Source: Terricaulis sp. (GTDB taxonomy: Bacteria > Pseudomonadota > Alphaproteobacteria > Caulobacterales > Aquidulcibacteraceae). From it: a DNA stretch of 64,000 nt. A model generated the notes under the pieces. The model ran no database searches and had not been told where the DNA came from. It worked only from the letters and a program-made list of their open reading frames with translations. Position 1 is the first letter of the stretch; the number at the start of each line of letters is the position of its first letter. A program made the translations under genes and the position numbers. Of this stretch, positions 23,651 through 40,050 are shown in pieces. The DNA lies in contig JANPZV010000005.1 in NCBI GenBank assembly GCA_024707365.1, positions 1,550,001 through 1,614,000 on the forward strand. The letters are read 5' to 3'.

Positions 23651-23914
23651 TCACACGCCGAAATAGGAAGGCTTGGCCATGGCGCGCGGCCAGGTGTCCA
23701 AGAACCACGGATCGCGCGCCGAGGCGTAGGCGCCGGCCCCCTGTATGATCGCCCAGAGCGGAATCCCAATCAGCGGCTGTTGCAAGCCAAAGGCGATGGC
23801 GGCAGCGACGGTGGCGTTGAGGATCGCGAATGTCCGCGGGACCCCTCCCAGAAGCAGCGGGCGCGTCAGCGAGGTGCGCAGCGGAATGCGATAGCCTTCG
23901 GGCTCTTCGAGCAT
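23651..23914 (-). CDS. trbD: TrbD, small inner-membrane transfer protein (VirB3-like)
   Basis: Eighty-seven residues (MLEEPEGYRIPLRTSLTRPL onward) with two membrane segments (FAILNATVAAAIAFGL; LIGIPLWAIIQGAGAYASA) and the usual ending DPWFLDTWPRAMAKPSYFGV. In the raw sequence it is in one open frame with trbC. Reducing the five-C run at 23925-23929 by one base gives trbC its own stop in a TGATG overlap, the normal arrangement, so the fusion is probably artificial. Confidence 0.85.
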   Translation of the reverse strand: MLEEPEGYRIPLRTSLTRPLLLGGVPRTFAILNATVAAAIAFGLQQPLIGIPLWAIIQGAGAYASARDPWFLDTWPRAMAKPSYFGV

Positions 23915-24235
23915 CAGAGCACCGCCCCCGCCGGCGAATCCGAAGAAGCCGAGGAAGAATGACACCGCCGCGAACATGATGGCGATGCCGAGCCCGACAA
24001 AGGCGAGTTTTCGGATGCCGCCGCCGCCTTCGCCGAAAATAATGCCGACGCCCGAGATGATGATGGCGATGACGGCCGCAGCGCGCGCGACAGGACCGGT
24101 TATAGAGTCCACGACCTGCTGCAGCGGCGCTTCCCACGGCATGCCTGAGCCCGAGGCAAAGGCGGGGCCAGCTACGGAGAGGGTCAGAACGATGACGGCT
24201 CCGGTCGCAACGAACCTCACGCGTGATGCATTCAT
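23914..24235 (-). CDS. trbC: TrbC, conjugative pilin precursor (VirB2-like)
   Basis: About 106 residues: a signal peptide (MNASRVRFVATGAVIVLTLS to FAS), the conserved GMPWEAPLQQVVDSI motif, and two hydrophobic helices (AAAVIAIIISGVGIIFG; VGLGIAIMFAAVSFFLGFFG) separated by a glycine-rich turn. RP4 TrbC is cyclised to form the pilus subunit. ATG at 24235 overlaps the trbB stop. Confidence 0.88.
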
Positions 24236-25173: not shown

Positions 25174-25618
25174 TCCGCCGCTCCATTGAGGTCGGCGCCG
25201 GCCCCGTCGCGGCGGCCATGGGCCGCGTAGGGAAAGAGCGTGTGACCAGGCGCCATGCTCTCGGCGAGAAGCTCGAGGAAGGACTGAAAACGCCGCTCCG
25301 CGACGGCATGGGTGGCGTCGAGTGTTTCCTCCAGTGGCGGCGGCGTGTGCTCTAGCCAGACACGAATGAAGAGAAGCAACATCTCTTTGACGATGGCGAT
25401 CTCCCGCTCGCGCACCACTTCGCGCTTTTCGAGGCGGTCGAGCCGCATCTTGACCGTATCGGCGACCGCTTCATCCTTTTCATCAAGGAAGACGCGCCGC
25501 ATCGCATCGGCCGCCGCGCGCGTGGTCGGCAGGCCGCGAAGACGAGCTTCCAAGTCGAGCGCCCGCGCGAGATCTTGCTCGAGATAGATCGTGATCTTTT
25601 TTTGGGCCTGGCGCTCAT
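25170..25618 (-). CDS. CopG/ribbon-helix-helix protein of the transfer operon (frameshifted at its start)
   Basis: The N-terminal strand-helix-helix KKITIYLEQDLARALDLEAR is a ribbon-helix-helix DNA-binding fold, followed by helical and possibly coiled-coil sequence. The gene begins at ATG 25618 (overlapping the traG stop as ATGA) with MSARPKK. A seven-T run at 25597-25603 needs one more base to join the start to the rest. Genes of this type commonly sit between traG and trbB in alphaproteobacterial elements; it may regulate transfer. Confidence 0.72.
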
Positions 25619-27663
25619 GACTCGGCCTCTTTGCTTCGATCTTCGGAGGACGGGCGCAGCGTGAAACGGGAGGCAGATTGAGCCCGGACATTCCTAGTGG
25701 GCCGAGAATCTGCGTCGCGACCTCCCTCCGGCAGGTTCATCTCCAGCGCTGACAAGAGGTCGCCCTGTTGCAGCTCGGGCGCCGGACGTGACCGAAGCGG
25801 CGCTTTTGTGTTGAGCGCGCGGCCGATCGCGCCAACGCGTTCTGCATCTGGCGCGCGGCGCTGGGCGAACCCGAGTGAGGAGATGCCGCTCCAGGGCGAG
25901 GGCAGTGCGGGGCGCTGCGCTTCCTCGGGGATAGGGAGCAGCCGCGCACGGAAGATCGGCTCTTCATCGTAGCGCAATTTCTCGGCGCGCAGCGGTTTTG
26001 CGCCGGTGACAAAGATCAGCTCCTCGCCTTCGCTGAGCTGTCGCACCTCCGAGGGCAACAAGAGCGGGCGTCGCTCCTCGCGATAGGTGATGGCGCGATG
26101 ATCAAGCCCGAACAGCTGGCGCCTGCCCGACCAAGTCTCTTGGGGGCGCATCTCGAAGAGGTCGCCGGCAAGTTTTGAGATCGTCTCAGCTGTTTCGACA
26201 TCGGTTGCGGCAAAGCTGGTGACGATCTGGCAATTATCCAAAATCGTGTGATAGCGGCCATAGGCTTGCGTGACCTGGTGCAGCGATTGGGTGATGAGAT
26301 AGGCGCGGAGGCCATAGCCCGCCATCGCGCCCATCGATTGCTCAAACAGGTCGAGCTTGCCGAGTTGGGGAAATTCATCGAGCAGAAGCAGAAGATTGCG
26401 TGTTTTATTTCGGCCATCAGCGGCGCGCTCTTGATGCTCCATCAGAACGCGAAGCACAGCGCCAAAAACGAGACGGATGAGCGGTTTCACGCGCTTGGCG
26501 TCGTTCGGCGGCCAGCAAAGATAGAGTGTCACCGGCGTATCGGCGCACATCAGGTCGGAGATTCTGAAGGTCGAGGTCGCCGTGTTTTGGCGTACAAGCG
26601 GATCGGCGAAGAGCCCGAGATAGCTCTCGGCGGTGGCCTTGATGCCGGCACGGAGCTTCTCATGATAGGCAGCGTAGGAGTGCGCTGCGCGTTTTACCTC
26701 GGGGTGTGTTTCAGGCTCGCCGCTCGTTTCGTTTTTGCGATGGAGCGTCGCCTCCATCAGCTTAGCCGTGTCGTCGAAACGGGCCAGCAATTCGAAGACG
26801 CGCGCGAGCGTCTTGCTGGGCGCCGGCTCAGCATAAACGACGTGGATGATGAGGCCGGCGAGAATTTGCTTGGCGGCGCGGTCCCAAAATTCCTGGAAGC
26901 GCCCATCGCCGTAAGGGTCTGCGATGAGTTCCACGAGATTTTGAACGTCGCGCACTTCTTGTGCGCCCGGCCGGATCGTATCCAGAAGATTGAGCCGGTC
27001 TGAGATCGCATCGGTCGGCGCAAAGCGGAGCACCGGGCCGAGTTTGGCGCGCCAGCCAGCGGTGCCGGGGAAGGCGACGCGGGCGTCGCCGGAATGAAGT
27101 TCGCCTTTGAGGTCCAGCACCAGGATAGAGTTCGGCGAAGCGAGCAAGGTCGGGATGACGCTGCCACGGGTTTTGCCCGAGCGCGTGCCGCCGGTCAGCA
27201 GCAGGTGATGTGGTCCATCATAAGCGAGGATCTCGCCGTCGAACTTGCCGATGATGATGCCGCCTTCTGCGAGGAGGCCGGCCTCGCGCGCATCTTTCCT
27301 CCCGCCCCAACTCTTCACGCCGAATGGCCGTTGGCTGGGATGGGGCGATTTCAGCACCACCAGCAAACAGATTGCGCTCGCCATGAAGCCGAGGAAGACT
27401 ATCAGTTTCGGCAAAGCAAAGGCGCGCGGATAGTGCGCGCCCCAGCGCTCTGACCATGTGAGGATCGAGAAGGGCGCATAGATCGGCGTCGAACCGAAAA
27501 CAAAAACTGGTTTGCCGAGCGCGGCCTGGTAGCCGAAGGTGCCTGCGCACGTTTGGGTGGCCGCGAAGCCAGCGAGCACGCTGATCGACAGAGCGGCGGC
27601 GCCGGCCCAAATCAGTCGCGTATTGAGTTTTCGCTCCCACATGACCGGAAGCGTCTCGCTCAA
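25615..27663 (-). CDS. traG: TraG/VirD4-family coupling protein
   Basis: A 682-residue type IV coupling protein that would bring the relaxosome to the mating channel. Two N-terminal membrane helices (LIWAGAAALSISVLAGFAA; LIVFLGFMASAICLLVVL) precede the ATPase with Walker A LLTGGTRSGKTRGSVIP and Walker B NLLLLLDEFPQLGK. The frame is intact. It is the first gene of the operon that runs through trbI; all following genes overlap or nearly so. No relaxase gene lies in the window. Confidence 0.93.
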   Translation of the reverse strand: MSETLPVMWERKLNTRLIWAGAAALSISVLAGFAATQTCAGTFGYQAALGKPVFVFGSTPIYAPFSILTWSERWGAHYPRAFALPKLIVFLGFMASAICLLVVLKSPHPSQRPFGVKSWGGRKDAREAGLLAEGGIIIGKFDGEILAYDGPHHLLLTGGTRSGKTRGSVIPTLLASPNSILVLDLKGELHSGDARVAFPGTAGWRAKLGPVLRFAPTDAISDRLNLLDTIRPGAQEVRDVQNLVELIADPYGDGRFQEFWDRAAKQILAGLIIHVVYAEPAPSKTLARVFELLARFDDTAKLMEATLHRKNETSGEPETHPEVKRAAHSYAAYHEKLRAGIKATAESYLGLFADPLVRQNTATSTFRISDLMCADTPVTLYLCWPPNDAKRVKPLIRLVFGAVLRVLMEHQERAADGRNKTRNLLLLLDEFPQLGKLDLFEQSMGAMAGYGLRAYLITQSLHQVTQAYGRYHTILDNCQIVTSFAATDVETAETISKLAGDLFEMRPQETWSGRRQLFGLDHRAITYREERRPLLLPSEVRQLSEGEELIFVTGAKPLRAEKLRYDEEPIFRARLLPIPEEAQRPALPSPWSGISSLGFAQRRAPDAERVGAIGRALNTKAPLRSRPAPELQQGDLLSALEMNLPEGGRDADSRPTRNVRAQSASRFTLRPSSEDRSKEAES

Positions 27664-27821: not shown

Positions 27822-28556
27822 ATGCGCGAAAGCCTCATCAGCGCCGAGATGATCTCCTTCGCCGCCGCGTGCGATGCGGCCGCGACGCTGGACGAGCTCG
27901 AAAGCATTTGGCGTGAGCATTTGGTTGAGATGGGGTTCACCTTCGTCGCTCTCGGCGTACATGCCGACCCGCTGCGTCCCGATCGCGCAGCCTACGTATT
28001 CCAGAACTACCCCGACGAATGGATCGCTCATTTTTCGACGCAGCGTTACCACCTCGTCGATCCGGTGTATCGCGCGGCGGAGGCGGGAACCGTCGAGTTT
28101 GCTTGGACCGATCCCGAATTTCTTCAGCCGCTGTCTTGGCGCCAGCGCCGCATCCTCAACGAGGCGCGCGAATTTGGCCTCCGACATGGACGCACGCATG
28201 GGCTGGCGTCCATGCTTCCGCGTCGCGCCTCGGCTTCCCTGGTGACGAGCGACCCGGATATGCCGGAAGGCGCCTATACAGCCGGTAAATTGATCAATGT
28301 GCTCGTGCATCACCGCGCCACCCAAATGTGTATTGCGGAAGCGCCCCGTTTTGCGGAGCTAAAGCGGCGCGAGCGGCAATGCCTCGAGCTTTGCGCCAGC
28401 GGTCTCGTCGACGCCGATATCGCGCGTGGCCTGGGACTAAGCGTCGCCACCGTGCGGCGTCACATTGAACGCGCGCGTGTACGCTTGGGCGCGAGCACAC
28501 GCATCCAGGCCGCGGCGCGCGCAATCGCTTCGGGTCAAATCAAACCTATTTCCTGA
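27822..28556 (+). CDS. LuxR-family quorum-sensing regulator (first copy)
   Basis: About 244 residues. The autoinducer-binding domain keeps the expected positions: Trp in YPDEWIAHF, Tyr/Asp/Pro in RYHLVDPVY, Trp in VEFAWTD and Gly in RTHGLASML. The GerE-type helix-turn-helix (LKRRERQCLELCASGLVDAD, then VATVRRHIERARVRLGAS) forms the C-terminus. ATG at 27822 (MRESLISAEM) is preferred over an upstream in-frame ATG at 27747 because similarity starts there. It is divergent from traG, which makes control of conjugation a plausible role. Confidence 0.85.
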   Translation: MRESLISAEMISFAAACDAAATLDELESIWREHLVEMGFTFVALGVHADPLRPDRAAYVFQNYPDEWIAHFSTQRYHLVDPVYRAAEAGTVEFAWTDPEFLQPLSWRQRRILNEAREFGLRHGRTHGLASMLPRRASASLVTSDPDMPEGAYTAGKLINVLVHHRATQMCIAEAPRFAELKRRERQCLELCASGLVDADIARGLGLSVATVRRHIERARVRLGASTRIQAAARAIASGQIKPIS

Positions 28557-28597
28557 GGCCAGGCCAAGGCGGAAGGGCGAAATCGCTCGCGAATGTG

Positions 28598-28623
28598 GTG
28601 AACATTGCTCAAACGATGTTCAC
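28598..28623. promoter_or_regulatory. inverted repeat upstream of the second luxR
   Basis: GTGAACAT (28598-28605) and ATGTTCAC (28616-28623) are perfect 8-base arms 10 bases apart, about 100 bases before the second luxR start. This could be an operator. It differs from the site upstream of luxI. Confidence 0.5.
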
Positions 28624-28647
28624 GCAAAACTCTTTGCGGGGTTTTGC
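28624..28647. terminator. stem-loop after the first luxR
   Basis: GCAAAAC (28624-28630) pairs with GTTTTGC (28641-28647) around a 10-base loop, 68 bases after the luxR stop. No T-run follows, so it is a weak terminator candidate at best; it directly abuts the inverted repeat before it. Confidence 0.35.
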
Positions 28648-28720
28648 CTCGTTCTATTCACGCTCCCGCTTGCCACTACGCGTTTTTACCATCTAAAGTT
28701 GCTGGGACGAGGAACGTCCC

Positions 28721-29452
28721 ATGCATGCCCGCATCAATTGGGCGTTCGCTGAGGTCTGCGATCGCGCGACAAGTGTTGAAGAGCTTCACGCCGCCTTCAT
28801 GCGCGAGATCCGCGCGCTCGGCTTCAGCTATGGCGCATGCGCATCGCACGTCGATCCACTGAATCCGCCCGCCGAAGCGGTGATGATGGTCGATTATCCG
28901 CTCCCTTGGCTGGAACGCTTCAGTGAGAAAAACTACGCCAAACGCGACCCAGTCTATTGGAGGGCGCGCCGTCAATCCCTGCCGTTTCAATGGAGCGACC
29001 GGGTGTTTCGTTCGGGTCTTGGCGCCGATCAGGTGCGGATTTTGAACGAGGCGGCCGAAGCTGGCCTTGGCGATGGCATCACGATTCCCATCCACGCGCC
29101 CGACGCATTGCCGGCCTCGTGTTCGCTGGTCATTGGACCCGATGGAATTGATCCACTCGATGCGCAGAAGGCGACTTGGTACGGCGTCTACGCGCATGAA
29201 AGCGCGCGGCGGCTGCGTCTCGCGGCCCTGCCCGCCAAACCCGTCTTGAGCCCGCGCGAGCGGCAGTGCGTGCAAATGCTGGGGCAGGGCAAGGACGACG
29301 GCGCGATGGCGATCATCCTCGGCCTGAGCGAACACACCGTGCACAATATTGTACGCCGCACGATGGGTAAGTACGGCGTGGGCAGCCGGGTGCAGGCCTT
29401 CGTTCGGGCGCTGAAAGATGGCCAGATCCGATTGGAGGACGTGGCCCCTTAG
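28721..29452 (+). CDS. LuxR-family quorum-sensing regulator (second copy)
   Basis: A 243-residue regulator with conserved ligand-domain residues (YPLPWLERFSEKNYAKRDPVYW; FQWSDRVF; GLGDGITIPIHAP) and a C-terminal GerE helix-turn-helix (LSPRERQCVQMLGQGKDD, EHTVHNIVRRTMGKYGV). It lies directly before luxI on the same strand and is the more likely cognate receptor. The frame is intact. Two different LuxR proteins beside one LuxI allows activator/antiactivator or two-tier control. Confidence 0.87.
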   Translation: MHARINWAFAEVCDRATSVEELHAAFMREIRALGFSYGACASHVDPLNPPAEAVMMVDYPLPWLERFSEKNYAKRDPVYWRARRQSLPFQWSDRVFRSGLGADQVRILNEAAEAGLGDGITIPIHAPDALPASCSLVIGPDGIDPLDAQKATWYGVYAHESARRLRLAALPAKPVLSPRERQCVQMLGQGKDDGAMAIILGLSEHTVHNIVRRTMGKYGVGSRVQAFVRALKDGQIRLEDVAP

Positions 29453-29463
29453 TTTTTTGCGTT

Positions 29464-29485
29464 TGTCAATAGGCACGTTCGTGCC
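29464..29485 (+). promoter_or_regulatory. lux-box-like site upstream of luxI
   Basis: TGTCAATA is followed by the perfect 14-base palindrome GGCACGTTCGTGCC (29472-29485), ending 59 bases before the luxI ATG. The same TGTCAATAGGCAC...CGTGCC arrangement (19 of 22 identical) lies on the minus strand at 63383-63362, about 40 bases before another gene. It is the best candidate for the LuxR binding site and would give autoinduction. Confidence 0.65.
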
Positions 29486-29544
29486 CATTTCGGATCAGCT
29501 CAAAATCGGCAAGCTCTCCACCGTATATCGCGGACGGAGATCTT

Positions 29545-30174
29545 ATGATCCACATCATCACTGCCGAGAACCGGCGCAATTATCATCACGCCCTGATGGA
29601 AATGCATCGCCAACGCAAGACCGTGTTCATCGACCAGATGAAATGGCGGCTACAAGAGAGCGCAGGCATAGAGATCGACGCGTATGATTGCCCCGAGGCG
29701 ATCTATCTGATCGAAGCGGTCGCGCCGCGTGCGGCTGTGACCGGTTCAGCGCGCTTGTTGCGCACCGACCGGCCCCATCTCATGGGCGATCATTTTCCGC
29801 ATCTGTGCGATGGTCCTGTGCCGCAGGGGCCGGAAGTTTGGGAAGCAACACGGTTCTGTCCCGCGCCCGAGACGCCTGCCGGGGAGGCGAGGCACGATCT
29901 GCTTGCGCGCCTGATCGCGGCGATCATGGAGACCGCGCTCATCTTCGGTGTCGAGCGCGTCACCTTTGTGGCCAACGCAGCGCTCGCGCCCTTGGCTTTG
30001 CGCGCCGGCTGGGAGGTTGAACCCCTCGGAACCTCAAAGCGCGCGGGCCGAGATCGGCTGACCGCCATGAGTGCTGCCATCGACCAGCGCGGTCTGCGCC
30101 GCGTCCGTGCGCGCGCCGGGCTCAATGGCCCTGTGACGCGCTTTCTGGGCGGCGATCTCCTTCAAGCCGCGTAA
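29545..30174 (+). CDS. LuxI-family acyl-homoserine-lactone synthase
   Basis: A 209-residue AHL synthase joining S-adenosylmethionine with an acyl chain. The invariant residues are present: Arg/Phe/Trp in QRKTVFIDQMKWRL, Asp pair in IEIDAYDCPEAIYLI, Arg in GSARLLRTDRPHLM and Glu/Arg in EVWEATRFCPAP. The acyl group cannot be predicted. ATG at 29545 gives the standard start MIHIITAENRRNYH. phyH follows after 11 bases with a GGAGGA ribosome site. Confidence 0.93.
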   Translation: MIHIITAENRRNYHHALMEMHRQRKTVFIDQMKWRLQESAGIEIDAYDCPEAIYLIEAVAPRAAVTGSARLLRTDRPHLMGDHFPHLCDGPVPQGPEVWEATRFCPAPETPAGEARHDLLARLIAAIMETALIFGVERVTFVANAALAPLALRAGWEVEPLGTSKRAGRDRLTAMSAAIDQRGLRRVRARAGLNGPVTRFLGGDLLQAA

Positions 30175-30185
30175 CGGAGGAAGCC

Positions 30186-31079
30186 ATGAACACGAAAGTA
30201 TTGCCCTTCGCCGCAAAACAATTGAGCCATATCGAAACGCTCGAGCGTGACGGGTTCGTTGTGCTTGAAAATGTGCTCGACGCGCGGCGTAGTCAAAAGC
30301 TCGCCGATGAACTTGAGCCCTGGCTCCAAGCGACGCCGCGCTGCGAAGGCGATTTCTACGGCTGGAAAACGACGCGCGTCGGCGGGCTCCTCTCGAAAGC
30401 GCCCAGCGTCGCCGACCTTGTCATGGATCCGTACATCTTGGCGATTGCTGAAGCGCTGCTTTTACCCAATTGCGATTGCATCCAGCTCAATCTCACCCAA
30501 GCGGTGCGCGTGCATGGACAGGAGCGCCCGCAGGCGCCTCACCGCGACGAAGAGATGTGGCCTTGGCCAACGAACGGCCAACACTGGCTCTTGAATGTCA
30601 TGTGGTCGGTCAGCGATTTTACAGAGGAGAACGGCGCGACCCGGCTCTGGCGCGGCAGCCATCGTCAAGAGCTTGACCGCAGCATTGACCCGGCCGACAG
30701 CGTCGCTGGTGTGATGCAGCGCGGCTCGGCGCTGCTTTTTTTGGGCTCGCTTACCCACGGGGCGGGGCAAAACCTGACGCCGTATCCGCGCACAGGCATC
30801 ATTGTCAGTTATTGCCTGGGCTGGTTGAAGACCTATGAGAACCAATTTCTGGCTTACCCGCGCGAGGTGGCGGCGTCTTTCCCTGAGGATCTGCAGCGCC
30901 TCATCGGCTATCGCATCCATCGACCAAATCTGGGCGGCTGGGAAGGACAAGATCCGATCGCCCATTTGCGCGATACGCGCGGGCCTGCGCCGCACGTCGA
31001 TGCGTTGACGCCGGAGATCGCGGTTCAGCTTAAAGCCCATTACGGCGAGGCCCAGGAGCGAGACGAGGATGGTGCTTGA
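30186..31079 (+). CDS. phytanoyl-CoA dioxygenase (PhyH)-family protein co-transcribed with luxI
   Basis: A 297-residue non-haem iron/2-oxoglutarate oxygenase-like protein. The iron-binding HxD lies in QAPHRDEEMWPWP, the distal His in LGSLTHGAGQN, and the 2-oxoglutarate Arg in PYPRTGIIVSY. It follows luxI by 11 bases and overlaps gntR. luxI-phyH neighbours are, as I recall, known from sphingomonads. A natural inference is oxidation of the acyl chain of the signal or of a precursor, but the substrate is unproven. Confidence 0.85.
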   Translation: MNTKVLPFAAKQLSHIETLERDGFVVLENVLDARRSQKLADELEPWLQATPRCEGDFYGWKTTRVGGLLSKAPSVADLVMDPYILAIAEALLLPNCDCIQLNLTQAVRVHGQERPQAPHRDEEMWPWPTNGQHWLLNVMWSVSDFTEENGATRLWRGSHRQELDRSIDPADSVAGVMQRGSALLFLGSLTHGAGQNLTPYPRTGIIVSYCLGWLKTYENQFLAYPREVAASFPEDLQRLIGYRIHRPNLGGWEGQDPIAHLRDTRGPAPHVDALTPEIAVQLKAHYGEAQERDEDGA

Positions 31080-31680
31080 TCCGCGTCCTGGCGAACGCGT
31101 CTATCAAGAGATCAAGCAGGCAATTTTGTCAGGAGAACTTGTCGTTCTCCAACGCCTCGACATTGACAAGCTCTCCTCTCAGTTTGGCGTCAGCGCTACG
31201 CCGGTTCGCTATGCGTTGGCAATTTTGGCCGCTGAGCGCCTCGTGAGATTGAGCACATCGCGGATTTATCAAGTCGCGTTTTGGTCGGAGCGGGAGTTGC
31301 GAGATCTCTATAAGTGGCGCCAACAGCTTACAAAATGGGCGCTCCAATCTTACTTGCCTTCGTCCGCACCAATCGTGCTGAACGACAATGATTACGTGGG
31401 CGCGTACCTAACGCTGATGGGCCATATTGACCGTGACGCCAACACCGAGGCGCGCCGCGCCGGCCGATCCGCGGACGAAAGGCTTGTGAACGCACTTCGC
31501 GCTGAAGCAGAGATACTTCCGGGCGCGTCCGATGAGATCAGAAAAATAGTCGCCGCGCTTGGCCGTGGCGGCGCCTCGGCGGGGGGCGCAATGAGAAGAT
31601 ACTTTGAGCGGCGTATCAGCCAATGCGCGCTGATACGAAGTGCGGCGCACGCCAAGGCGATGCCGAACAACGGCGCTTAA
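31069..31680 (+). CDS. GntR-family transcriptional regulator
   Basis: A 203-residue protein with an N-terminal GntR winged helix (VYQEIKQAILSGELVVLQRL, SQFGVSATPVRYALAILAAE) and a helical C-terminal ligand domain of FCD type. It overlaps the phyH stop by 11 bases, so it belongs to the luxI operon, and it directly precedes the lasso precursor genes. It may couple quorum sensing to the lasso locus. Confidence 0.82.
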   Translation: MVLDPRPGERVYQEIKQAILSGELVVLQRLDIDKLSSQFGVSATPVRYALAILAAERLVRLSTSRIYQVAFWSERELRDLYKWRQQLTKWALQSYLPSSAPIVLNDNDYVGAYLTLMGHIDRDANTEARRAGRSADERLVNALRAEAEILPGASDEIRKIVAALGRGGASAGGAMRRYFERRISQCALIRSAAHAKAMPNNGA

Positions 31681-31792
31681 TCGCCCTTTGAAAAACTTCC
31701 AACGAAATCTTTAGCCAGATAGTCCGCCAAATCTTGGTTCGCGGCGGCAAGCTGTCATCCGCCGCAAGGTGATGCGGTGGATGGAGAGTGCT
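31681..31792. promoter_or_regulatory. leader region before the lasso precursor genes
   Basis: A 112-base gap with an imperfect GCGGCGG...CCGCCGC stem (about 31741-31766) just ahead of the precursor ribosome site GGAGAG. It may hold the lasso promoter; TTGAAA at about 31687 is a possible -35 element, but no firm -10 is seen. Confidence 0.35.
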
Positions 31793-31918
31793 ATGCGTGA
31801 AGATACAGAACGCCAAGAAGACATCGTTGATCTCGGCGCCGCGACCGAAGTGACGCAAGGGATCTATGATCCCGTGAAAAAGGAAAACCTCGTCACGCCG
31901 CAAGCGCGCGACTTCTGA
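31793..31918 (+). CDS. lasso-peptide precursor 1
   Basis: A 41-residue precursor. The leader ends DLGAATEVTQ, with Thr at the penultimate position as in nearly all lasso leaders. The predicted core is GIYDPVKKENLVTPQARDF: Gly1 and Glu9 would form a nine-membered macrolactam ring, leaving a ten-residue tail. GGAGAG lies five bases before ATG 31793; two in-frame upstream ATGs (31781, 31772) are less likely. The next precursor has a matching plan and the B and C maturation genes follow, which supports the call. Confidence 0.85.
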   Translation: MREDTERQEDIVDLGAATEVTQGIYDPVKKENLVTPQARDF

Positions 31919-31926
31919 TCATCCCT

Positions 31927-31958
31927 CTGCGGCGCGGACATTGTCGTTTGCGCCGCAG
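31927..31958. promoter_or_regulatory. stem-loop between the two lasso precursors
   Basis: CTGCGGCGC (31927-31935) and GCGCCGCAG (31950-31958) are perfect 9-base arms with a 14-base loop, followed by ATCTTTCTT. It may act as a partial terminator or stabilise the upstream precursor message. Confidence 0.5.
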
Positions 31959-31979
31959 ATCTTTCTTGGGAGATTTTCG

Positions 31980-32111
31980 ATGGAAAACTACGATGACCTG
32001 GATCACGAAGAGATTGTGACCGACCTCGGTCCTGCGAGCGACGTCACACGCGGGATTTGGGACCCGATTCTCAAAGAAAACTTCGTGTTGCCGCAGATGC
32101 GCGACATGTGA
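31980..32111 (+). CDS. lasso-peptide precursor 2
   Basis: A 43-residue precursor, MENYDDLDHEEIV to the leader end DLGPASDVTR, again with penultimate Thr. The predicted core is GIWDPILKENFVLPQMRDM, with Gly1-Glu9 ring closure. It shares G-I-aromatic-D-P, K-E-N at 8-10 and P-Q-x-R-D near the end with core 1, so the two are paralogues with a conserved scaffold. GGGAGA precedes the ATG. Confidence 0.85.
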   Translation: MENYDDLDHEEIVTDLGPASDVTRGIWDPILKENFVLPQMRDM

Positions 32112-32123
32112 ACTCGTGAGGGG

Positions 32124-32150
32124 CGCCGGGCGCAGATGAGGCGCCCGGCG
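32124..32150. promoter_or_regulatory. stem-loop between precursor 2 and the maturation genes
   Basis: CGCCGGGCGC (32124-32133) and GCGCCCGGCG (32141-32150) form a perfect 10-bp GC stem with a 7-base loop. There is no T-tract. Such a hairpin after precursor genes would let precursor mRNA exceed that of the B and C genes. Confidence 0.6.
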
Positions 32151-32158
32151 GCGTCGCC

Positions 32159-32804
32159 ATGACAACCTACCAATTAAGTGCACATGTGCGCGCATGCAGG
32201 GATGGCGGCTACATCGTCTTTCTTGATTTGCGACGCGACCGTTATTGGAGCGTCCCCGCGCAAACGGCGCCGGCCATCGCAGGGCTTGTGGAGGGGGAAT
32301 GTGCGCATGGGGGAGGCGCTCGGCTCATTGAATTGGGGTTGATCGAGCCGGCTGGAGTGAGGCGCGCGCTTGACGCGCCACGTCAAGATGCGCCGGAGCG
32401 GAAGCTGATCCAAGCAGACAATTATAGGGCGTCCCTGTTCGAATTAGGCCAATGCGCGTCTGCATGCTGGTGGGCAGAAAGATCGCTCGCGCGCCGTAGA
32501 TTGGATCTGACGCTGGCTCGCCTGGCCGTGCTCAAGTCGCGAGCGGCGAACCTAGAGGCGGATGCGCAAGACTTGGTCGGCGTGTTCGAGCAATTCAGAC
32601 CTTGGTATCCGCGCCAGCGCGTTTGTCTGTTCGACGCCGTGGCGCTGGCGTGCTTCATGATGATGCGTGGGTTGAAACCGGACATCGTCTTTGGCGTGCG
32701 CACCGCGCCATTTGCGGCCCATTGTTGGATCGAGTGGCAAGGTTTGCTCGCTGGCGATAGCTCGGATCATTGTGCGTCTTTCACGCCGATCAGCGTGGGT
32801 GTAG
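32159..32804 (+). CDS. lasso-peptide B protein (leader-binding RRE plus transglutaminase-like protease)
   Basis: Residues 1-75 form a PqqD-like recognition domain (GGYIVFLDLRRDRYWSVPA). The rest is a transglutaminase-fold leader peptidase with Cys156 in QRVCLFDAVALACF, His188 in APFAAHCWIEWQG and Asp200 in LLAGDSSD. The natural end is uncertain: no stop separates it from the next gene here, although a TAG in another frame at 32802-32804 would give the usual overlap. Length to that point, about 214 residues, is normal for proteobacterial B proteins. Confidence 0.87.
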
Positions 32805-34588
32805 AGGTGGCTTTCATTGGCTTTCGCTGGACACCCGGAGAGCGCAATGAGGCGCGCGCGTCGCGTGCGCTTGCCGAGCGCCTAAGGGACGGCGCCACAT
32901 CTCTCATCGAATGGCGTGGTCTTGTGCTGCTGCATCGCGGAGCAGGGCCCATTGAGGTTCTGCCGCATGGGATGGGCTTTGTTTTCGGGGCGCGTTTCGG
33001 GCGCGAACCGGATCCGTCACCGCCATGTGAGGCCCGTGTCGATCCCACGCCAACATGGATTGCCGAGCGGTGGGGGGCCTATGTCGCCGTGCTGGTTGAT
33101 CGCGGCTTTGACATTGTGCGCGTGCTTCGAGATCCAAGCGGCGCGCGTTCGTGCTTCTTCTCGGAGGTCGACGGCGTGCGGATCTTCTTCTCCGATGCCG
33201 AGGATTTCCTTCGGCTGGCGCCCGAAACCCGCGCCGACCTCGGGTTCATCCGCGGATTCTTGCGCTATCCCGCTTTTATTGGCCGGCGAACCGGACTTGA
33301 AGGCGTTCAAGAACTCGCGCCGGGAGAATGCGCGGTCTATCCACGGAAAGGCCTGAAAGTGGAGGCGGCTTGGACGCCGTTCGGTTTTGCACGCGCGAAC
33401 AAGGCGCTGGATTGGTCCGATGGCAAACAGGCGTTGCGCAATGCAGCCGATGCGAGCGTAAAGGCCTGGGCCGGACCGCACCAGCGGGTTGCTCTCCGGC
33501 TATCCGGCGGTTTCGATTCATCTGTCATGCTGGGCTTGCTACGGAGCAACACCGAGGCGGACATCACATGTGTCACGGAATATTGGGAAGGCGCCCTGAG
33601 GGGGATGAGCGCCGCTATGCGCACGCGGTGGCCGCTGCAAACGGAACGAAACTCGAGGAGCTACGTTTCGATCCGGCCCGTGTAGACTATGGGCTTTGCC
33701 TGGATGGGGCCTTAACGCCCAAACCGACCCTTGCTGTGCTCAGCCTGGGCAATCGCGATCTGACCGCATTTTATGGCGACCTTGGCGTCAGCCTTGTCAC
33801 GTCGGGGCAGGGCGGCGATCATCTCTTCCAGCGTAGCCGCACGCCTTGGATCGCAGCGGATGCGGTTTGCGATCGCCTGCGCCCCAAAGCGCTTATGCAA
33901 ATCGCGCTCGACACCGCGCGGCTGACCGGACGCCCCGTCTGGGATGTGTTTGCCGCGATGGTGGTCGGCGCGGCGCGGCTGAAATCGCCAGCTTCCCCGC
34001 AATCGGACGTCATGGGCGTCCTCAAAATAGAGGAGAACGGTGATGAGGGCGCCGCAGGATCATGCGTGGCTCGCCAAATTGCGATGGGGGACGCCTGCGC
34101 GGTCGCTGAGAGTTCATCAGCTGTTGCAGGCGCTTAGCTATTTTGATGAAGCCGCGCTTGCTGGCGGCGCACGCACGCACCCGCTCTTGCTCTCGCAGCC
34201 GATTGTCGAAGCCTGCCTGCGCATTCCGCCCTATGTGATGGTTGCGGGCGGCAAAGAGCGTGCGCTCGCACGCGCAGCCTTCGCGGACCTTGTCCCTCTT
34301 GATGTCGTGCGCCGCATCACCAAGGGCGAAACCACGCGCTATTTTGCCGCCGTGCTTGCGGCCAACGAGGCTTGGATCCGCGACATCCTGTGCGGAGGAA
34401 AGCTCATCGAAAACGGCGTGGTTGATTCTACCGCACTTCAGCACGCGCTGGCGGGCGGCTGGCTGCAGGACGGAATGGCGGCAGATGGACTTTACGCTCT
34501 TATCGCCGCCGAATGTTGGCTCAGAAACCTGGAGAAGGCGCGTGAACGCGCCCTCTCTGATTTAGCGGTGTCTGCTACGGGCCCGTAA
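32795..34588 (+). CDS. lasso-peptide C protein, asparagine-synthetase-like macrolactam synthetase (frameshifted)
   Basis: This enzyme adenylates the ring Glu side chain and closes the lactam. An N-terminal glutaminase-like domain (from VAFIGFRWTPGERN) lacks a catalytic Cys at its start, as in lasso cyclases. The synthetase domain has the PPi loop ALRLSGGFDSSVMLGLL and SLVTSGQGGDHLF, and ends in VVRRITKGETTRYF. Slips at 33594-33596 (one C missing) and 34039-34040 (one G extra) break the frame; conservation continues across both. It meets the isopeptidase gene tail to tail with a 27-base overlap. Confidence 0.86.
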
Positions 34589-36592
34589 GCTGCGCCAACG
34601 CTCTAGGCGGTCAGGGTCGTCGGGGTCGGCGCGTTCGACGCCCCGTAACCAGAAATCCAGCCAATCCATGGCGCGGGTTTGCGCTGCCAAAAGCTGAGCC
34701 GGTCGCCATTTGATGTGATAGGCGCCGGGATAGACATAGAGGTCGACCGGATGGCGGAGTTCGTCGAGCCGCGTGGCCAATGGAAACCCCATTATGGCTT
34801 CGCTTTCCGCCAGGTTCATGAGCAGGGGCGCTCGGATCTGCTCGGCATGCAGTATTGTCGTGTTTCGCCGCCACCAGGCCGCCCACGGATCGTCGCCCTC
34901 GGCATCGGGACCACGCATGCCTTCGTCCAACAGGCCCTGGCGGAACGCGCGCGAGCCAAGCGTCCATGCTGTGGTGTCCGTTGGCTGGGTGCTGACGACG
35001 GCTGCGGCGAACAGATCTGAATTGGTGATCGCCCAATAAAGCGTCTCGGCGCCGTCGCTGAGTCCGGTAATACCGATGCGGCGAGGGTCGCTGAGACCGC
35101 GTCGGTCAAGCTCAGCCAGCATCGCCTCAAGCGCGGACTGCTTCATCAAATTCTCGGAATTATCCAGAGCTGTCCGTTGCTCAAGTTCAACTGGGGATAG
35201 GGCCGCTTCGGCGCCGCGCCATTCGGGCCGATCAACGCTCAGCACGAGATAGCCGCGGCCAGCCAGCGGCAGTATGGGATACTCGCCGCCGACACCGCCC
35301 CGAAGAAAACCGCGCGATCGGTACTGCACCACCACGACCGGATAACGACGGCCGGCTCGATAATTTCTCGGGAAGACGAGATGGGCAAAAGACGCGTTGC
35401 CGTATGCGTCGTTGACCTCGATGGTCTCTATGCGCGGCTGCTCGAATGCACGCCAACCGGGGTTTGGATCGTAAAGCTCAGCGAGTTCGCCGGTATCGAC
35501 ATCAATCGAGACAATACGACGTGGCTGTAGCGGACTCTCCTGCAGGCATATTAGCCGAGCGGCGGCCCGGCCACAGCCAAACAATTCTTCGTCCGCACGT
35601 CGGATGCGGCGGACCGTGTTTGCGCGCCAGTCCCATGTGTAAAGTGCGGTCAGACCCTGACCATGTCCCTCCATGCGGCGAAACACAATACGATCGGCGA
35701 AGACCCATGCGCCGAGCATGCGTCCGCTGCAAGCGGCATCATCACACATCGCGACATCGCCGGCCGGGGCGGCGGCGTAGTAGAGGCCGAGCGCGGGCGT
35801 AGAGGCGCGATCGTCAGCGATCCGCGGCGCAATCCAGGCCGTCGCCTCGCCAGCCCGATCCTGCGCGATCGCATTGGACGGCGCAGGATGGTGAGGTCGG
35901 GCGTTGAGGCGCTCGCTCTCATGCGGCGATGCCGCCCGCTCTGCGCGGGTTACTACATTGACGACAATGTGCACGCGTGCTGGATCGGCTATCGCGCGCG
36001 GCCTGAGGCTGGCGTAAGGCGTAAAATAATCGTCGGGGCGGAAGCCATAGGTCTCGGCGCGTGCTGAGGCGGCGCTCAAGGCGGCGCGTGGCGCAGCAGT
36101 TTCCACAACGAGATGGCCCTCGTCGAGCCACGCAAAGCGAAGCACGTCACCGGGCCTTTCGACGAGCATTTGAGCGGTCGCGCCGTCGAGGGAGGCGCGC
36201 CAGAGTTCTGTGCGCCCATCGCGTTCCGCGATGTAAGCAAGCGTGCGACTGTGGGGTGACCAAACTGGCGCGCGGTCCGCCGCGGCGCCTGTGGGCCCAT
36301 ACGGCGTATCGCGCAGAATGATGTCGCCCGCGTCCGCGATCTGGCGTGGCGATCCGCCCGCGCTCGGCATCACGAGCAGGCGATAGCGATAGGAATTGTC
36401 CCGCACGCGGGTTTCGCGGGCGAACACGGCGAGGGTTTGGCCGTCGGGCGAGATCGTCAGCCCGCCGCGATAATCACCGAGGTCGATCAGCGCGAGGAGA
36501 TCTTCCGCGCTTGGGGGGCGCGCCGCCGCCTGGCTGGAAAAGAGCAGGGTGATCCCCGCCAAGGCAGCGGCGCAGGTGAGGCGGCTTACCAA
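34562..36592 (-). CDS. lasso-peptide isopeptidase (AtxE-like, S9 prolyl-oligopeptidase family)
   Basis: A 676-residue protein with a signal peptide (VSRLTCAAALAGITLLFSSQ), a beta-propeller-like N-terminal domain and an alpha/beta-hydrolase domain: catalytic Ser in GITGLSDGAETLYW and His in PGAYHIKW. Astexin-type clusters carry such an enzyme to linearise the threaded peptide by cutting the isopeptide bond. The TTG start overlaps the receptor stop. Next to lasso genes, this function is preferred over a general dipeptidyl peptidase. Confidence 0.85.
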   Translation of the reverse strand: MVSRLTCAAALAGITLLFSSQAAARPPSAEDLLALIDLGDYRGGLTISPDGQTLAVFARETRVRDNSYRYRLLVMPSAGGSPRQIADAGDIILRDTPYGPTGAAADRAPVWSPHSRTLAYIAERDGRTELWRASLDGATAQMLVERPGDVLRFAWLDEGHLVVETAAPRAALSAASARAETYGFRPDDYFTPYASLRPRAIADPARVHIVVNVVTRAERAASPHESERLNARPHHPAPSNAIAQDRAGEATAWIAPRIADDRASTPALGLYYAAAPAGDVAMCDDAACSGRMLGAWVFADRIVFRRMEGHGQGLTALYTWDWRANTVRRIRRADEELFGCGRAAARLICLQESPLQPRRIVSIDVDTGELAELYDPNPGWRAFEQPRIETIEVNDAYGNASFAHLVFPRNYRAGRRYPVVVVQYRSRGFLRGGVGGEYPILPLAGRGYLVLSVDRPEWRGAEAALSPVELEQRTALDNSENLMKQSALEAMLAELDRRGLSDPRRIGITGLSDGAETLYWAITNSDLFAAAVVSTQPTDTTAWTLGSRAFRQGLLDEGMRGPDAEGDDPWAAWWRRNTTILHAEQIRAPLLMNLAESEAIMGFPLATRLDELRHPVDLYVYPGAYHIKWRPAQLLAAQTRAMDWLDFWLRGVERADPDDPDRLERWRSLRARSRHR

Positions 36593-39534
36593 CGCTGCCT
36601 CACTTCGATCATGGCAACGCGGCCCACCGGGGAGGCGTTTAGCGTGTCGAATCCCATGCCGATCGGGTTGTTGGCGAACGGCGGATCCTCATCAGTGAGA
36701 TTACGGATGTCGAGGGTGATTTCGGCGCCGGATCCATCGGTGTTTTGTCCGACCTTGCGCGTCACGCGCGCGTCGAAAGTCGTCCAGGAGCCAATCTCGC
36801 GCATCGGCGTGCTGAGATTGTCGCGGTAAGCGTCCGTGTATTGCAGCGAGAGCGCGCCGCGCCATAAGCCGGCGTCGAGCGCTACGCCCGCCCGCGCCCG
36901 CCAGTCAACGGGATTGAGCATGGTGTCGAGCACTTCAGTGCTGGCGAGCGAAGGATTGTTCTGACGTGAGAACTGAAGCAGCCCGCTTGCGCTCGCGAAC
37001 ATCGAGAGCACGCCCCAGTCGGTTTGGAATGCGTAAGAGACGGAGAGATCAACCCCGCGCACGTACAGGGCAGCGAGATTGGTTAGCCGTTCGTCCCAGA
37101 TAACTTCGATGCCGTCGGGCGGGATCACGCCCGAGATGTCGTCAGCGAACGCGAGATAGTCCGCGATTTGTTGCGGCGTTGGATTGCGGATGAAATACCC
37201 CTGGTACTGATCGGGGTTCTGGAACGCATCGAGAATGAAACCCGGGGTCGCGATCCGGTTAGAGAATTCGATATCGAAATAGGTTGCGGAGATTTTGAAA
37301 TCTTCCAGCCACGATGGCGCGAACTCAAATCCGGCGGTCCATGTTTCAGCCTCTTCGGGGTCGAGCCCACGATTGGCGCCGAGGATCTGCAACAGGCCGG
37401 TCGAACCATTGGTGGCGTCAGGGTCTAAGAAGCCAGGGAGCGAACCAATCGACGCGCCAACGCCGCCGAGCATTTGCGCAAATTGCGGGGCCTTGAACGA
37501 TTGGCCCCAGGTCGCGCGAAGCGTGAGCTCCGAGAGCGGGCGCCATTGCACGCCGATTTTGGGCGTGGTGGCGTCGCCAAAGTCCGAAGAATCTTCGCGC
37601 CGGACCGAAAGCGACAGCGACAGGTCATCAAGCACCGGCAGGAAGGCTTCGGCAAACAGGGCGTCGGTGGTGCGCGCGCCCGGCGCTTGGGTGAATGGAT
37701 TGGTGATGAGGCCCGAGCCGAAGATCTCTACGCGGTTGATGCTGAATGTCTCGCGCCGCCGCTCGATGCCGATGGCGACGCGCGCCCGCCCGCCGGGCAA
37801 ATCGAACACGCCGCCATCGGCGCGCAAAGCGTAGCTCAAGAGTTCAGAATCGGTGTCGATGTGTTGGCGCATGGTCAGAGCGGCTAGCGCTGCGCTCGGC
37901 GTGTCGCCGCCGCCGCCGAACGGATTGAAGGCAATGGCTGGGTCTGAGCTTGCAAGAGAAGAAGCGAGCGCGCTTGAATCGGCGATGTTGGTGTTGTCGA
38001 CCTTGTCGACGTGGCCGCCATAGGAGACGCTGGCTTCGATCTGCCAGTCCCGTCCGAATTCAAATTGCGCCCCAGCCGTTGTGGCGATCGTGTCCGAGCG
38101 TGTGTCGGTTGTCAGTGGCCCGAAATCACCGCCGAAAAAATATGCCATGAACAGTGTGCCGTCGCCAGCGAAGAGGCCGTTTTGCTGGCGGTAGTAATTC
38201 GTCTCAGGCACAGCCACCACGCCGCCCAATTGCGCCTTCTCCGCATGCGCCTCTCGCCGCGACGCCAATACATCCCAGAAGAAGCTGATGTTTGGCGTCA
38301 TATTCTGGTTGAGGGACAAGAAGACCGAATGGCTTTCCTGTTCAGGCAACAGGAATGTCCCCTCATTGCCGTTCTGTAGGTTGACGGCGCCATCGAGCAA
38401 ATCTGCTTCCGTCAGCGTGAGTCCATTCTGCCCATTCGGAATTGCAAGCGTCACCGGGGTTGAACCGACCAAGATGATGTTTCCAGGCGCAGAGGTGAAG
38501 CGAGAGAAGTTCGAGCCGCCGGAGGGCGTAAGATCGGTGGTCGCGGCATAATCGCGATCGACGGCCGCCAGCGCGTCACGATGACGATAGTCGTACCCAG
38601 AAATCAGCGCGCCTTTCGCCCAATCGGCGCCCATGACGTGCGAGAAACCAATTTCGTCCATGCCGTCAGCAATGCTGAAGCGCACAGCGGTTTCAGCACG
38701 CTCCATATGGCGTCGGAGCAGAATGTTGACCACGCCGCCAACCGCGTCGCTGCCATAGGTTGCCGATGCGCCGTCTGCGAGCACTTCGACGCGTTCGATG
38801 GCCGCCATAGGGATGGCGGAAATGTCGACAAAGTTGCCGAGGCCCGCGGGCGCGAGGCGTCGGCCGTTGAGCAGGGTCAGCGTCGCGTCCGATCCGAGGC
38901 CGCGTAAGTCCACGGTCGAGCCGAGGGCGATATTGTGTCCGGGCGCGGTGGAGTTGAGTTGCGTGAGTTCGCCTTGGCTTCCGGGAAAGACCTGGGGCAG
39001 GGTCTGCAGTAGGTCCTGCACGGTGCTGCGGCCGCTCTGTTCGATGTCGCTGCGGTCGAGCGTGAGAAGATCCGCGCCTGAGGGTACAGCGCCGCGAATG
39101 CGTGTGCCGGTGACGACAAGCTCGTTTTCGCTGCTGGTTTCAGCGCCGCTCGCGGCGCTCTGTTGCTGGGGGCGGGAGGATTGCTCCTGCGCCAGTACGA
39201 GATTGCCGCCGCTTATGCCTGCATTATAGCCCGAACCCGCGAGCAAGAGGTCGAGCGCCTGTTGGCGCGTATAGGAGCCGCGGATCTGCGGTGCAGAGAG
39301 GCCGCGCAGATCGTCTGAGAAGTAGAGAGTGTTGACGCCAGCTTGCCGTGCAAATTCGCTCAAGGCGGTGCTGAGAGGCTGAGCCGCGATGTTGAACTCT
39401 ACGCGCGCATCACTCGTCTGCTGAAGATCTTGCGCGCGCGTTGGTTCGACCACAACAGCGCCCATAGCGCCAAGAATGAGAGCGGTCGCGAGCTTTCGCC
39501 GGCGGTTGTAACGCTTGGTGATCGTCTCTTTCAT
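36586..39534 (-). CDS. TonB-dependent receptor with N-terminal signalling domain
   Basis: A receptor of about 982 residues: signal peptide (ALILGAMGAVVVEPTRAQ), an STN domain (FNIAAQPLSTALSEFARQAG), a plug (ENELVVTGTRIRG, TLTLLNGRRLAPAGLGNFVD) and a 22-strand barrel ending VAMIEVRQRW. STN domains relay ligand binding to a FecR anti-sigma protein. Beside the isopeptidase, the ligand is likely a lasso peptide, its own or foreign. The ATG at 39534 follows AGGGGG; the frame is intact throughout. Confidence 0.88.
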   Translation of the reverse strand: MKETITKRYNRRRKLATALILGAMGAVVVEPTRAQDLQQTSDARVEFNIAAQPLSTALSEFARQAGVNTLYFSDDLRGLSAPQIRGSYTRQQALDLLLAGSGYNAGISGGNLVLAQEQSSRPQQQSAASGAETSSENELVVTGTRIRGAVPSGADLLTLDRSDIEQSGRSTVQDLLQTLPQVFPGSQGELTQLNSTAPGHNIALGSTVDLRGLGSDATLTLLNGRRLAPAGLGNFVDISAIPMAAIERVEVLADGASATYGSDAVGGVVNILLRRHMERAETAVRFSIADGMDEIGFSHVMGADWAKGALISGYDYRHRDALAAVDRDYAATTDLTPSGGSNFSRFTSAPGNIILVGSTPVTLAIPNGQNGLTLTEADLLDGAVNLQNGNEGTFLLPEQESHSVFLSLNQNMTPNISFFWDVLASRREAHAEKAQLGGVVAVPETNYYRQQNGLFAGDGTLFMAYFFGGDFGPLTTDTRSDTIATTAGAQFEFGRDWQIEASVSYGGHVDKVDNTNIADSSALASSLASSDPAIAFNPFGGGGDTPSAALAALTMRQHIDTDSELLSYALRADGGVFDLPGGRARVAIGIERRRETFSINRVEIFGSGLITNPFTQAPGARTTDALFAEAFLPVLDDLSLSLSVRREDSSDFGDATTPKIGVQWRPLSELTLRATWGQSFKAPQFAQMLGGVGASIGSLPGFLDPDATNGSTGLLQILGANRGLDPEEAETWTAGFEFAPSWLEDFKISATYFDIEFSNRIATPGFILDAFQNPDQYQGYFIRNPTPQQIADYLAFADDISGVIPPDGIEVIWDERLTNLAALYVRGVDLSVSYAFQTDWGVLSMFASASGLLQFSRQNNPSLASTEVLDTMLNPVDWRARAGVALDAGLWRGALSLQYTDAYRDNLSTPMREIGSWTTFDARVTRKVGQNTDGSGAEITLDIRNLTDEDPPFANNPIGMGFDTLNASPVGRVAMIEVRQRW

Positions 39535-39681
39535 GGATTCCCCCTTCCGCCCTTGAATGAGCGTTGTCGGGAGAAAGACACCGCACTTCACAAACTGCGC
39601 CATGGCGGTGCGCACAAAGATTGTGGGAGAGGGGCTGGCGTGCAGACGGGCGCGCTCCGATGATCGCTGAGGAGGAACGCA

Positions 39682-40050
39682 ATGAGAGGTATGGGCGATT
39701 TTCAAAGGGCGCAGATGAAGCACAGAGACGCGCGCGTCAGCGCGATGGCGCAACATTTGCGCGCGGCGATCGATCTATGGGAGGAGATCCAGCTTTATCC
39801 GTTCAAGAAGGAGGGGCCCCCCGAGCCGCCGCCTTCGCCGCCAGCGCCGCCGCCGGTTATCGCGGCGCCGCCAGAGAAGCTTGCATACGGGGTAAAAGAG
39901 GCGGCGGTTGCCCTGGGGGTCGGCGGAACGACGGTCTGGCGCGCGATCAGAGAGGGGAAACTGCCGACCGTGAAGGTGGGCAATCGCACGCTCATAAGGA
40001 CGGAAGTCTTGCAGGCGTGGCTTTCCGCGCCTGTTGCGCCCAAGACCTAA
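39682..40050 (+). CDS. AlpA/excisionase-like DNA-binding protein (second copy)
   Basis: A 122-residue protein with a helical N-terminus, a proline-rich linker (about residues 48-66) and a C-terminal winged helix of excisionase type (GVKEAAVALGVGGTTVWRAI, KVGNRTLIRTEVLQAWL). GAGGAGGAACGC precedes the ATG. It is divergent from the TonB receptor and could regulate that operon or element excision. Confidence 0.72.
   Translation: MRGMGDFQRAQMKHRDARVSAMAQHLRAAIDLWEEIQLYPFKKEGPPEPPPSPPAPPPVIAAPPEKLAYGVKEAAVALGVGGTTVWRAIREGKLPTVKVGNRTLIRTEVLQAWLSAPVAPKT

Follow-up and report, generated by a model that had tools for sequence, protein, structure and literature searches.

A lasso-peptide cluster of the isopeptidase type with a predicted quorum-sensing switch on mobile DNA of Terricaulis and its relatives

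A 64-kb stretch of DNA from Terricaulis sp. (G000:C5:1550001-1614000; hereafter the window) carries a block of quorum-sensing genes joined to a lasso-peptide cluster of the isopeptidase type. An earlier note on this DNA had read the genes as luxR, luxR, luxI, phyH, gntR, two precursors (A), B and C, followed by a convergent isopeptidase and TonB-dependent receptor, and our hidden Markov model (HMM) searches and inspection of the sequence bear out this order with its strands and coordinates (Table 1). From the lux block to the receptor the genes span 27825-39756, and the first five, luxR1, luxR2, luxI, phyH and gntR, are HMM-confirmed in that order on the plus strand. Both LuxR proteins contain PF03472 and PF00196, and a LuxR with its domain for binding N-acyl-homoserine lactone (AHL) adjoins LuxI, the mark of an AHL circuit. 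The best NCBIfam match of luxI is a TraI-type synthase, with a score under that model's cut-off. In named genomes, the proteins closest to this PhyH come mostly from metagenome-assembled genomes (MAGs) labelled Hyphomonadaceae or Alphaproteobacteria.

Lasso precursors are recognized by Thr at position -2, Gly1 and an Asp or Glu at positions 7-9 of the core. The two predicted cores in the window are each 19 residues long and have Thr at -2, Gly1 and Glu9; that of A1 is identical in L105 (G019:C2), the closest fetched relative, with 76% DNA identity. The TonB receptor adjoins the isopeptidase. The match of the receptor to the STN domain (PF07660) reaches 24.2 bits, under the cut-off of 28.4. Measured against L105, the ratio of nonsynonymous to synonymous substitution (dN/dS) is 0.065-0.17 for luxR1 (0.13), luxR2, luxI, phyH, gntR, B, the isopeptidase, the TonB receptor and traG.

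Table 1. Features of the window, with positions counted from its first base
Feature	Position	Strand	Evidence and remarks
Tyrosine integrase	11612..12769	+	PF00589 59 bits, PF13356
trbB..trbI transfer genes	16794..25173	-	TrbI, VirB8+CagX, TrbL domains; trbE, trbB
traG coupling protein	25615..27663	-	tblastn traG matches in relatives; order as on PP1Y Lpl
luxR1, AHL-binding regulator	27825..28556	+	PF03472 85.2 bits, PF00196 41.5 bits (longer open reading frame from 27747)
luxR2, regulator adjoining luxI	28721..29452	+	PF03472 94.3 bits
Lux-box-like palindrome TAGGCACGTTCGTGCCCA	29470..29487	.	7/9 pairs; 57 bp before luxI
luxI, AHL synthase (TraI-like)	29545..30174	+	PF00765 77.8 bits
phyH, iron/2-oxoglutarate (Fe/2OG) dioxygenase, luxI-linked subfamily	30186..31079	+	PF05721 91 bits
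gntR regulator	31069..31680	+	PF00392 51.8 bits; start overlaps phyH end
Lasso precursor A1	31793..31918	+	Read from sequence; predicted core GIYDPVKKENLVTPQARDF, ring G1-E9
Stable hairpin between A1 and A2	31926..31959	+	Terminator-like scan
Lasso precursor A2	31980..32111	+	Read from sequence; predicted core GIWDPILKENFVLPQMRDM
Lasso B (leader peptidase)	32159..32806	+	Lasso B2 NF033537 63.5 bits, cut-off 33
Lasso C (cyclase/Asn synthase type)	32807..34588	+	Three pieces, two frames; changes near 33594, 34046
Atxe2-family lasso isopeptidase	34562..36592	-	Single open reading frame; NF033523 585.5 bits, cut-off 400
TonB-dependent receptor	36586..39756	-	Single open reading frame; PF00593 barrel, PF07715 plug
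FecR anti-sigma	60570..61499	-	PF04773
Extracytoplasmic function (ECF) sigma factor beside FecR	61586..62086	-	PF04542, PF08281

The association between the lux and lasso blocks recurs throughout the genus. In a set made up of the own genome and 29 relatives (~102 Mb), there were 34 matches to luxI and 30 to lasso B2, and 21/30 of the latter lay within 10 kb of luxI at a start-to-start distance that was always 2.7-2.9 kb. If the 30 B2 matches were placed uniformly over ~102 Mb, about 0.2 would be expected within the 34 windows of 20 kb around luxI; the co-location is far above chance. Among the other nine B2 matches, the locus is truncated by the end of its contig in six (<2 kb from B2 in five, inside gntR in G012), while three have a readable flank without luxI (G008:C7, G010, G020), with an isopeptidase cluster only at G008:C7. 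Linkage to luxI was accordingly found at 21/24 B2 loci with a readable upstream flank, or at 21/22 when only isopeptidase clusters are counted. Run on the genus set, the search proposed in the earlier note, for luxI within 10 kb of lasso genes, yielded 21 linked loci, and the outcome that it named as fatal, lux and lasso blocks occurring apart at random, is argued against in the genus by linkage at 21/24 loci and by modules that are swapped yet joined.

Gene content and order are conserved across these 21 genus loci (the window plus 20 fetched linked relatives). All have luxR2, luxI, phyH, gntR, B, at least pieces of C, a convergent isopeptidase (split in L092) and at least part of the TonB receptor, in the same order and strand: luxR-luxI-phyH-gntR-A-(A)-B-C, then the convergent isopeptidase-TonB pair. 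Two candidate precursors occur in 19/21 loci and one in the remaining 2; both precursors of L096 are atypical and lack Gly1. Behind a conserved leader, the core sequences vary widely among loci. Sigma and/or FecR genes stand beside the block in 12/20 fetched relatives.

Sequence comparison among the loci shows that the two modules are exchanged against each other. Within the lux module (luxR2, luxI, phyH), pairwise identities are correlated at 0.61-0.81, and those of B and isopeptidase at 0.76, whereas lux genes correlate with B or isopeptidase at only 0.01-0.23. Specific pairs illustrate the pattern: L095 and L098 share 96% identity in luxR, 94% in luxI and 91% in phyH vs 34% in B and 40% in isopeptidase, and L092 and L098 share 79% in isopeptidase vs 44% in luxR. 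By these measures, the lux and lasso modules recombine yet stay joined, as would be expected from cassette exchange behind a kept lux block; selection for the link or recombination at conserved flanks can each produce such a pattern.

An 18-base palindrome after a GTCA anchor before luxI has at least 6 of 9 pairs in 20/21 genus loci and at least 7 in 17; L107 has none. Eight pairs were reached by 11/21 regions, in L095 and L104 at a place other than the anchored site. In the four genomes searched, own included, the pattern of the window's class has exactly one exact site each, before luxI, and the only other match of at least 14/18 in the window is at 63360 (14/18). We regard the palindrome as a candidate LuxR operator. 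The genus palindromes fall into about four classes of inner sequence. In sphingomonad and gammaproteobacterial loci, palindromes before luxI mostly have 6-9 of 9 pairs, many no better than chance. As a separate observation, a second copy of the lux box at 16/18 is present only in L093:1367 and L096:639, upstream of an open reading frame (ORF) that looks AsnC/Lrp-like by eye and lies near a sigma gene; L110 has a weaker second copy (15/18).

The pairing extends beyond the genus. Of 25 plasmid records in which an isopeptidase-like gene was matched, at least 7 have luxI no more than 12 kb away (luxI being taken from the 60 of 695 records listed). Annotated examples are PP1Y Lpl and plasmids of S. 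paeninsulae, UT26 (pCHQ1, at ~10 kb), ES2-1 (p2), Blastomonas (pBSY18_2) and S. indica (pMC4); plasmids with the pairing belong to Novosphingobium, Sphingomonas, Blastomonas and Sphingopyxis, and THN1 is known from match coordinates alone. Precursors on the plasmids are annotated as "benenodin family." Two layouts can be distinguished. In the first, found in the window and S. paeninsulae, the lux operon runs into A-B-C. In the second, found in PP1Y (where a HEPN gene intervenes), ES2-1, Blastomonas and S. indica, it runs into sigma-FecR-TonB-peptidase genes, and A-B-C is convergent. Both layouts have gntR 3' of phyH. In addition, the Blastomonas (L115) and S. indica (L118) plasmids carry a prolyl-oligopeptidase-like enzyme weakly like Atxe2 and the window isopeptidase, possibly a divergent isopeptidase.

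We also scanned named genomes with a PhyH alignment, which confirmed 440 loci, of which the best 80 were kept. This set is biased in that it starts from the luxI-type PhyH and gives lux-to-lasso rates only; its genes were called by tblastn, which may miss a divergent gntR or B. luxI lies directly upstream of phyH in 78/80 of these best loci. For the 60/80 loci on which our counts are based (the 20 with <9 kb downstream were omitted), the downstream content was lasso genes at 31, a type IV secretion system (T4SS) without lasso genes at 11 and neither at 18. The presence of gntR after phyH is associated with lasso linkage, which was seen at 26/32 loci with gntR vs 5/28 without it. Outside the 22 genus-like loci (L120-L140, L161) fall 13/31 lasso-linked loci, which belong to Novosphingobium, Sphingopyxis (4), Sandaracinobacteroides, Telmatospirillum (Rhodospirillales; a MAG), 4 MAGs labelled Proteobacteria and two Gammaproteobacteria, Povalibacter uvarum and Steroidobacter gossypii. 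Some of these links are looser, with lasso genes ~7 kb from phyH in L152 and L154, and only C, at the locus end, in Steroidobacter. The genus and PhyH-seeded counts are not independent because 14/80 loci are genus-set contigs (L120, L122, L124-L127, L129-L131, L135, L136, L139, L140, L161). A class-wide draw of 337 genomes had an isopeptidase in 2 and luxI in 52, too sparse for linkage, and the argument is therefore carried by the genus and PhyH-seeded sets.

Each half of this arrangement has precedent. The same three genes in the same order as in the window, luxR-luxI-phyH (novR-novI-phyH), are described from Sphingomonadaceae in the available portions of PMC3704786, PMC4288048 and PMC5012321. 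The last of these, as far as its available text goes, also remarks on a GntR-like gene directly 3' of one phyH and terms the bacterial reaction of the luxI-paired PhyH yet to be described; it reports 3-OH-C8 and C8 as the signals of N. subterraneum LuxI enzymes. None of the three came up among open papers on lasso peptides together with luxI, and the word "lasso" does not occur in the available text of PMC4288048. Likewise, the available text of PMC9266682 sets out the architecture of isopeptidase clusters (astexin, benenodin and sphingopyxin type), which resembles that of the window in A-B-C, the Atxe2-family isopeptidase, the TonB receptor and a GntR before the precursor and which also includes a sigma/anti-sigma pair. 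That text names no luxR-luxI-phyH and has no occurrence of "quorum"; the window further differs from the known clusters in its frame breaks in B/C and in the 21 kb that separate its FecR/sigma pair from the block. In the open PubMed Central literature, judged by title or the start of the abstract, we found no report joining luxI and lasso genes. What appears to be new, then, is the putative AHL-switched lasso cassette, the luxI-phyH pairing and the isopeptidase-cluster architecture each being already known.

The reading that we favor, with a probability of roughly 0.7, is that an AHL quorum-sensing switch is built into this isopeptidase-type lasso cluster. The gene content, the conserved order, the palindrome and the re-association of modules are observed; the regulation and the uptake and opening of the peptide are what we infer from them. 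LuxR with its AHL would bind the palindrome before luxI and fire a single operon, luxI-phyH-gntR, raising both AHL, as feedback, and GntR. At high density, two lasso peptides would then be switched on by GntR, by read-through into A-A-B-C on the same strand, or by both. GntR probably relays the signal to the lasso genes in either layout, and read-through is an option where A-B-C is co-directional. The cognate TonB receptor would bring the peptide back into carriers, possibly with a signal to FecR/sigma, and the isopeptidase would open it. A role for PhyH on the AHL side is more likely than one on the peptide side, since phyH accompanies luxI before virB operons without adjoining lasso genes. 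For the same reason, a role as a lasso tailoring enzyme, by analogy with CanE (PMC9266682, in its available text), seems less likely.

A conserved AHL operon offers a concrete inducing condition (AHL) and a candidate relay (GntR) for studying the role of lasso peptides. The pairing is shared by dozens of related loci, among them those of named isolates such as Sphingopyxis witflariensis (L181) and Novosphingobium capsulatum (L167), and may also give context for the long-noted association of luxI and phyH. To our knowledge, the natural role of lasso peptides that are imported and opened by their own producers is an open question.

Several observations weigh against a built-in switch. In one relative, G008, a lasso cluster lacking lux (L239) coexists with a lux-phyH-gntR block that has no lasso genes (L243), and on UT26 pCHQ1 luxI-phyH lies ~10 kb from the lasso genes, with gntR on the lasso side. 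In the PhyH-seeded set, 6/32 gntR-bearing loci have no lasso genes and 5/28 gntR-free loci do have them. Read-through cannot be the universal coupling because A-B-C is convergent in the PP1Y-type layout. In the window, a stable hairpin separates A1 from A2 (fold of 31915-31985, z = -4.4) and another separates A2 from B. A cassette-specific GntR is not favored because gntR sequences track the lux genes (correlations of 0.58-0.61, vs 0.10 with B and 0.06 with isopeptidase). The shuffle control for the palindrome is permissive: shuffled 110-base regions reach 6 pairs in 69% of cases, 7 in 16% and 8 in 1.4%, and the genus palindromes are not independent because the lux blocks of several loci are near-identical. 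Other targets are possible because one-mismatch sites occur elsewhere (7 forward and 8 reverse in G000, vs 3 and 1 for a reversed-pattern control). Finally, recombination at conserved flanks could hold the modules together without any regulation. Near the lasso-free block of G008, we also noted a 359-amino-acid ORF (L243:11914-12993) lying 3' of luxR-luxI-phyH-gntR, whose C terminus looks LuxR-like by eye; its L129 counterpart matched no Pfam family at 1e-5.

Whether or not the switch operates in relatives, the window's own copy may have lost its product. The earlier note had called the lasso-peptide locus complete, a description that B and C do not bear out in this assembly. The ORF at 32159-33685 passes from B into C with no stop between, C continues in a second frame (33328-34137), and the first frame resumes in a separate ORF (34040-34588). 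If these frame breaks are real, this copy would be unable to make peptides, yet could listen, import and open. We consider it somewhat short of an even chance that the cluster has decayed and that the strain no longer makes the peptide. In favor of decay, one-base gaps relative to L105 occur at 32790/32804 (the B/C junction), near 33594 and near 34046, while luxR1 to gntR, the isopeptidase and the TonB gene up to ~39129 have no in-gene frame-changing gap; trbE and the defense gene ZacC are likewise split. On the other hand, C is a single ORF in 17/20 relatives (broken in L102, L107 and L108), and its pieces in the window have dN/dS of 0.15-0.22, so that any decay would be recent. Assembly error is also possible. 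The own assembly (3.4 Mb in 8 contigs) is 89.7% complete, and in genome samples its median coding-like ORF is 243 amino acids vs 254 in G009, 273 in G018 and 272 in G023. Gross assembly noise is unlikely, but a low error rate could still underlie the frame breaks.

A more elaborate version of the switch is that it serves private signaling on mobile DNA with two keys, by which carriers would recognize each other. The first key would be an AHL circuit that uses a lux-box class of its own; the second would be the lasso peptide, which varies and could be read only by cells carrying the receptor and isopeptidase that match it. Lasso cassettes swapped behind conserved lux blocks bear on this idea, as does the finding that no lux-box class is repeated within the four genomes that have 2-3 fetched copies (10 copies); with a shuffle P of 0.15, this is not significant and suggestive only, and L107 lacks a clear palindrome. 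We hold the idea as doubtful.

An alternative to regulation is that the two modules merely share an address, the lux block being a conjugation switch and the lasso cluster a cargo that has repeatedly landed beside it. TraR/TraI systems are transfer switches of conjugative elements, and the window resembles the Agrobacterium type in its below-cut-off TraI-type LuxI match and in having luxR1 divergent from traG. Moreover, virB operons directly follow luxR-luxR-luxI-phyH on pEP2, pSLPG and an S. naphthae plasmid (where a transposase is inserted between luxI and phyH), and the regions displayed contain no lasso genes; T4SS genes without lasso genes follow at 11/60 PhyH loci, and the lux and lasso modules recombine. 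Because the same genes also precede virB, the lux block may serve different outputs on different elements. In the window, however, the operon heads toward the lasso genes rather than the transfer genes, and a scan for lux-box matches of at least 14/18 found none near traG, trb, the precursors or the isopeptidase. AHL control of transfer, which the density-controlled, self-transmissible unit of the earlier note would imply, is therefore without sequence support. A shared address is further countered by the 16/21 genus loci that keep the lux-lasso pairing without traG in the fetched flank, by the invariant order and strand and by the way gntR tracks lasso linkage, and we judge it unlikely.

The remaining alternatives accept density control and differ over what the peptide does. 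It could be a weapon that poisons importing relatives, with the isopeptidase as carrier immunity. Variable cores behind a conserved leader would suit this, as would a receptor and opening enzyme at 21/21 genus loci (broken in L092). So would an orphan sigma-FecR-TonB-isopeptidase set at G009:C3 ~1084057-1090512 (part in L097), which adjoins a complete lux-lasso locus, lacks a neighboring B2 match of its own and may represent spare uptake or immunity. TonB self-import would nevertheless be odd for a toxic peptide, and we know of no antibacterial activity among lasso peptides of isopeptidase clusters; a weapon seems improbable. Equally improbable is a scavenger that binds cargo, returns it and releases it on opening: the siderophore-like idea is discussed in the available text of PMC11006600, which reports that Sphingomonas BPH lost the use of phenanthrene when its lasso B gene was disrupted, and the sigma and/or FecR genes beside many blocks would fit, but cores vary widely among loci and there is no known cargo.

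The locus has the setting of mobile DNA, perhaps of an element capable of self-transfer. The earlier note had placed the locus inside a conjugative element. In support of this, an integrase, trbI, trbF/G, trbL, trbE, trbB and traG lie to the left, which amounts to the integrase, T4SS genes and coupling protein of an integrative and conjugative element (ICE). On the other side, trbE is split over two frames, and the DUF3363 protein of PP1Y, presumably a relaxase, had no match inside the window; the nearest similar match, at G000:C5:1652379, is ~63 kb right of the lasso block. The order of traG and trbB..I, together with the tyrosine integrase, resembles Tn4371-like ICEs, from which the window differs in the unmatched relaxase, the split trbE and borders that were not found around it. 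No att repeats of at least 20 bp occur between the left flank up to window position 12000 and the stretch rightward from 40000, and a further search gave short repeats only. Transfer genes near linked loci, for which that note also proposed to look, are present in the window itself, but traG borders the lux block at only 5/21 genus loci and is absent from the fetched flank of the other 16, of which 14 have matches to ParB and/or zincin (ArdC-like) genes and 2 have neither. Most of the 15.6-40.8-kb part of the window matches G019:C2 in the same order, with the last piece inverted. Within the transfer genes, the VirB8/TrbF and CagX/TrbG domains share one ORF (window 17929-19467, minus strand), by fusion or a frame change.

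The FecR/sigma pair of the window (~60.6-62.2 kb) sits 21 kb from the lasso block, not beside the receptor. At the DNA level it matches (71%) a pair that G019 carries 8.6 kb away from its own lasso block, and the FecR of the window is possibly a displaced partner of the TonB receptor. PADLOC identified ZacA, ZacB and ZacC at 47226-53388 (minus strand) as a candidate anti-phage defense set, in which the third gene is broken, ZacC being split into two ORFs (profile parts 4-174 and 451-1016). A groES/groEL pair (41962-44045, minus strand) also lies in the interval from the lasso block to the FecR/sigma pair.

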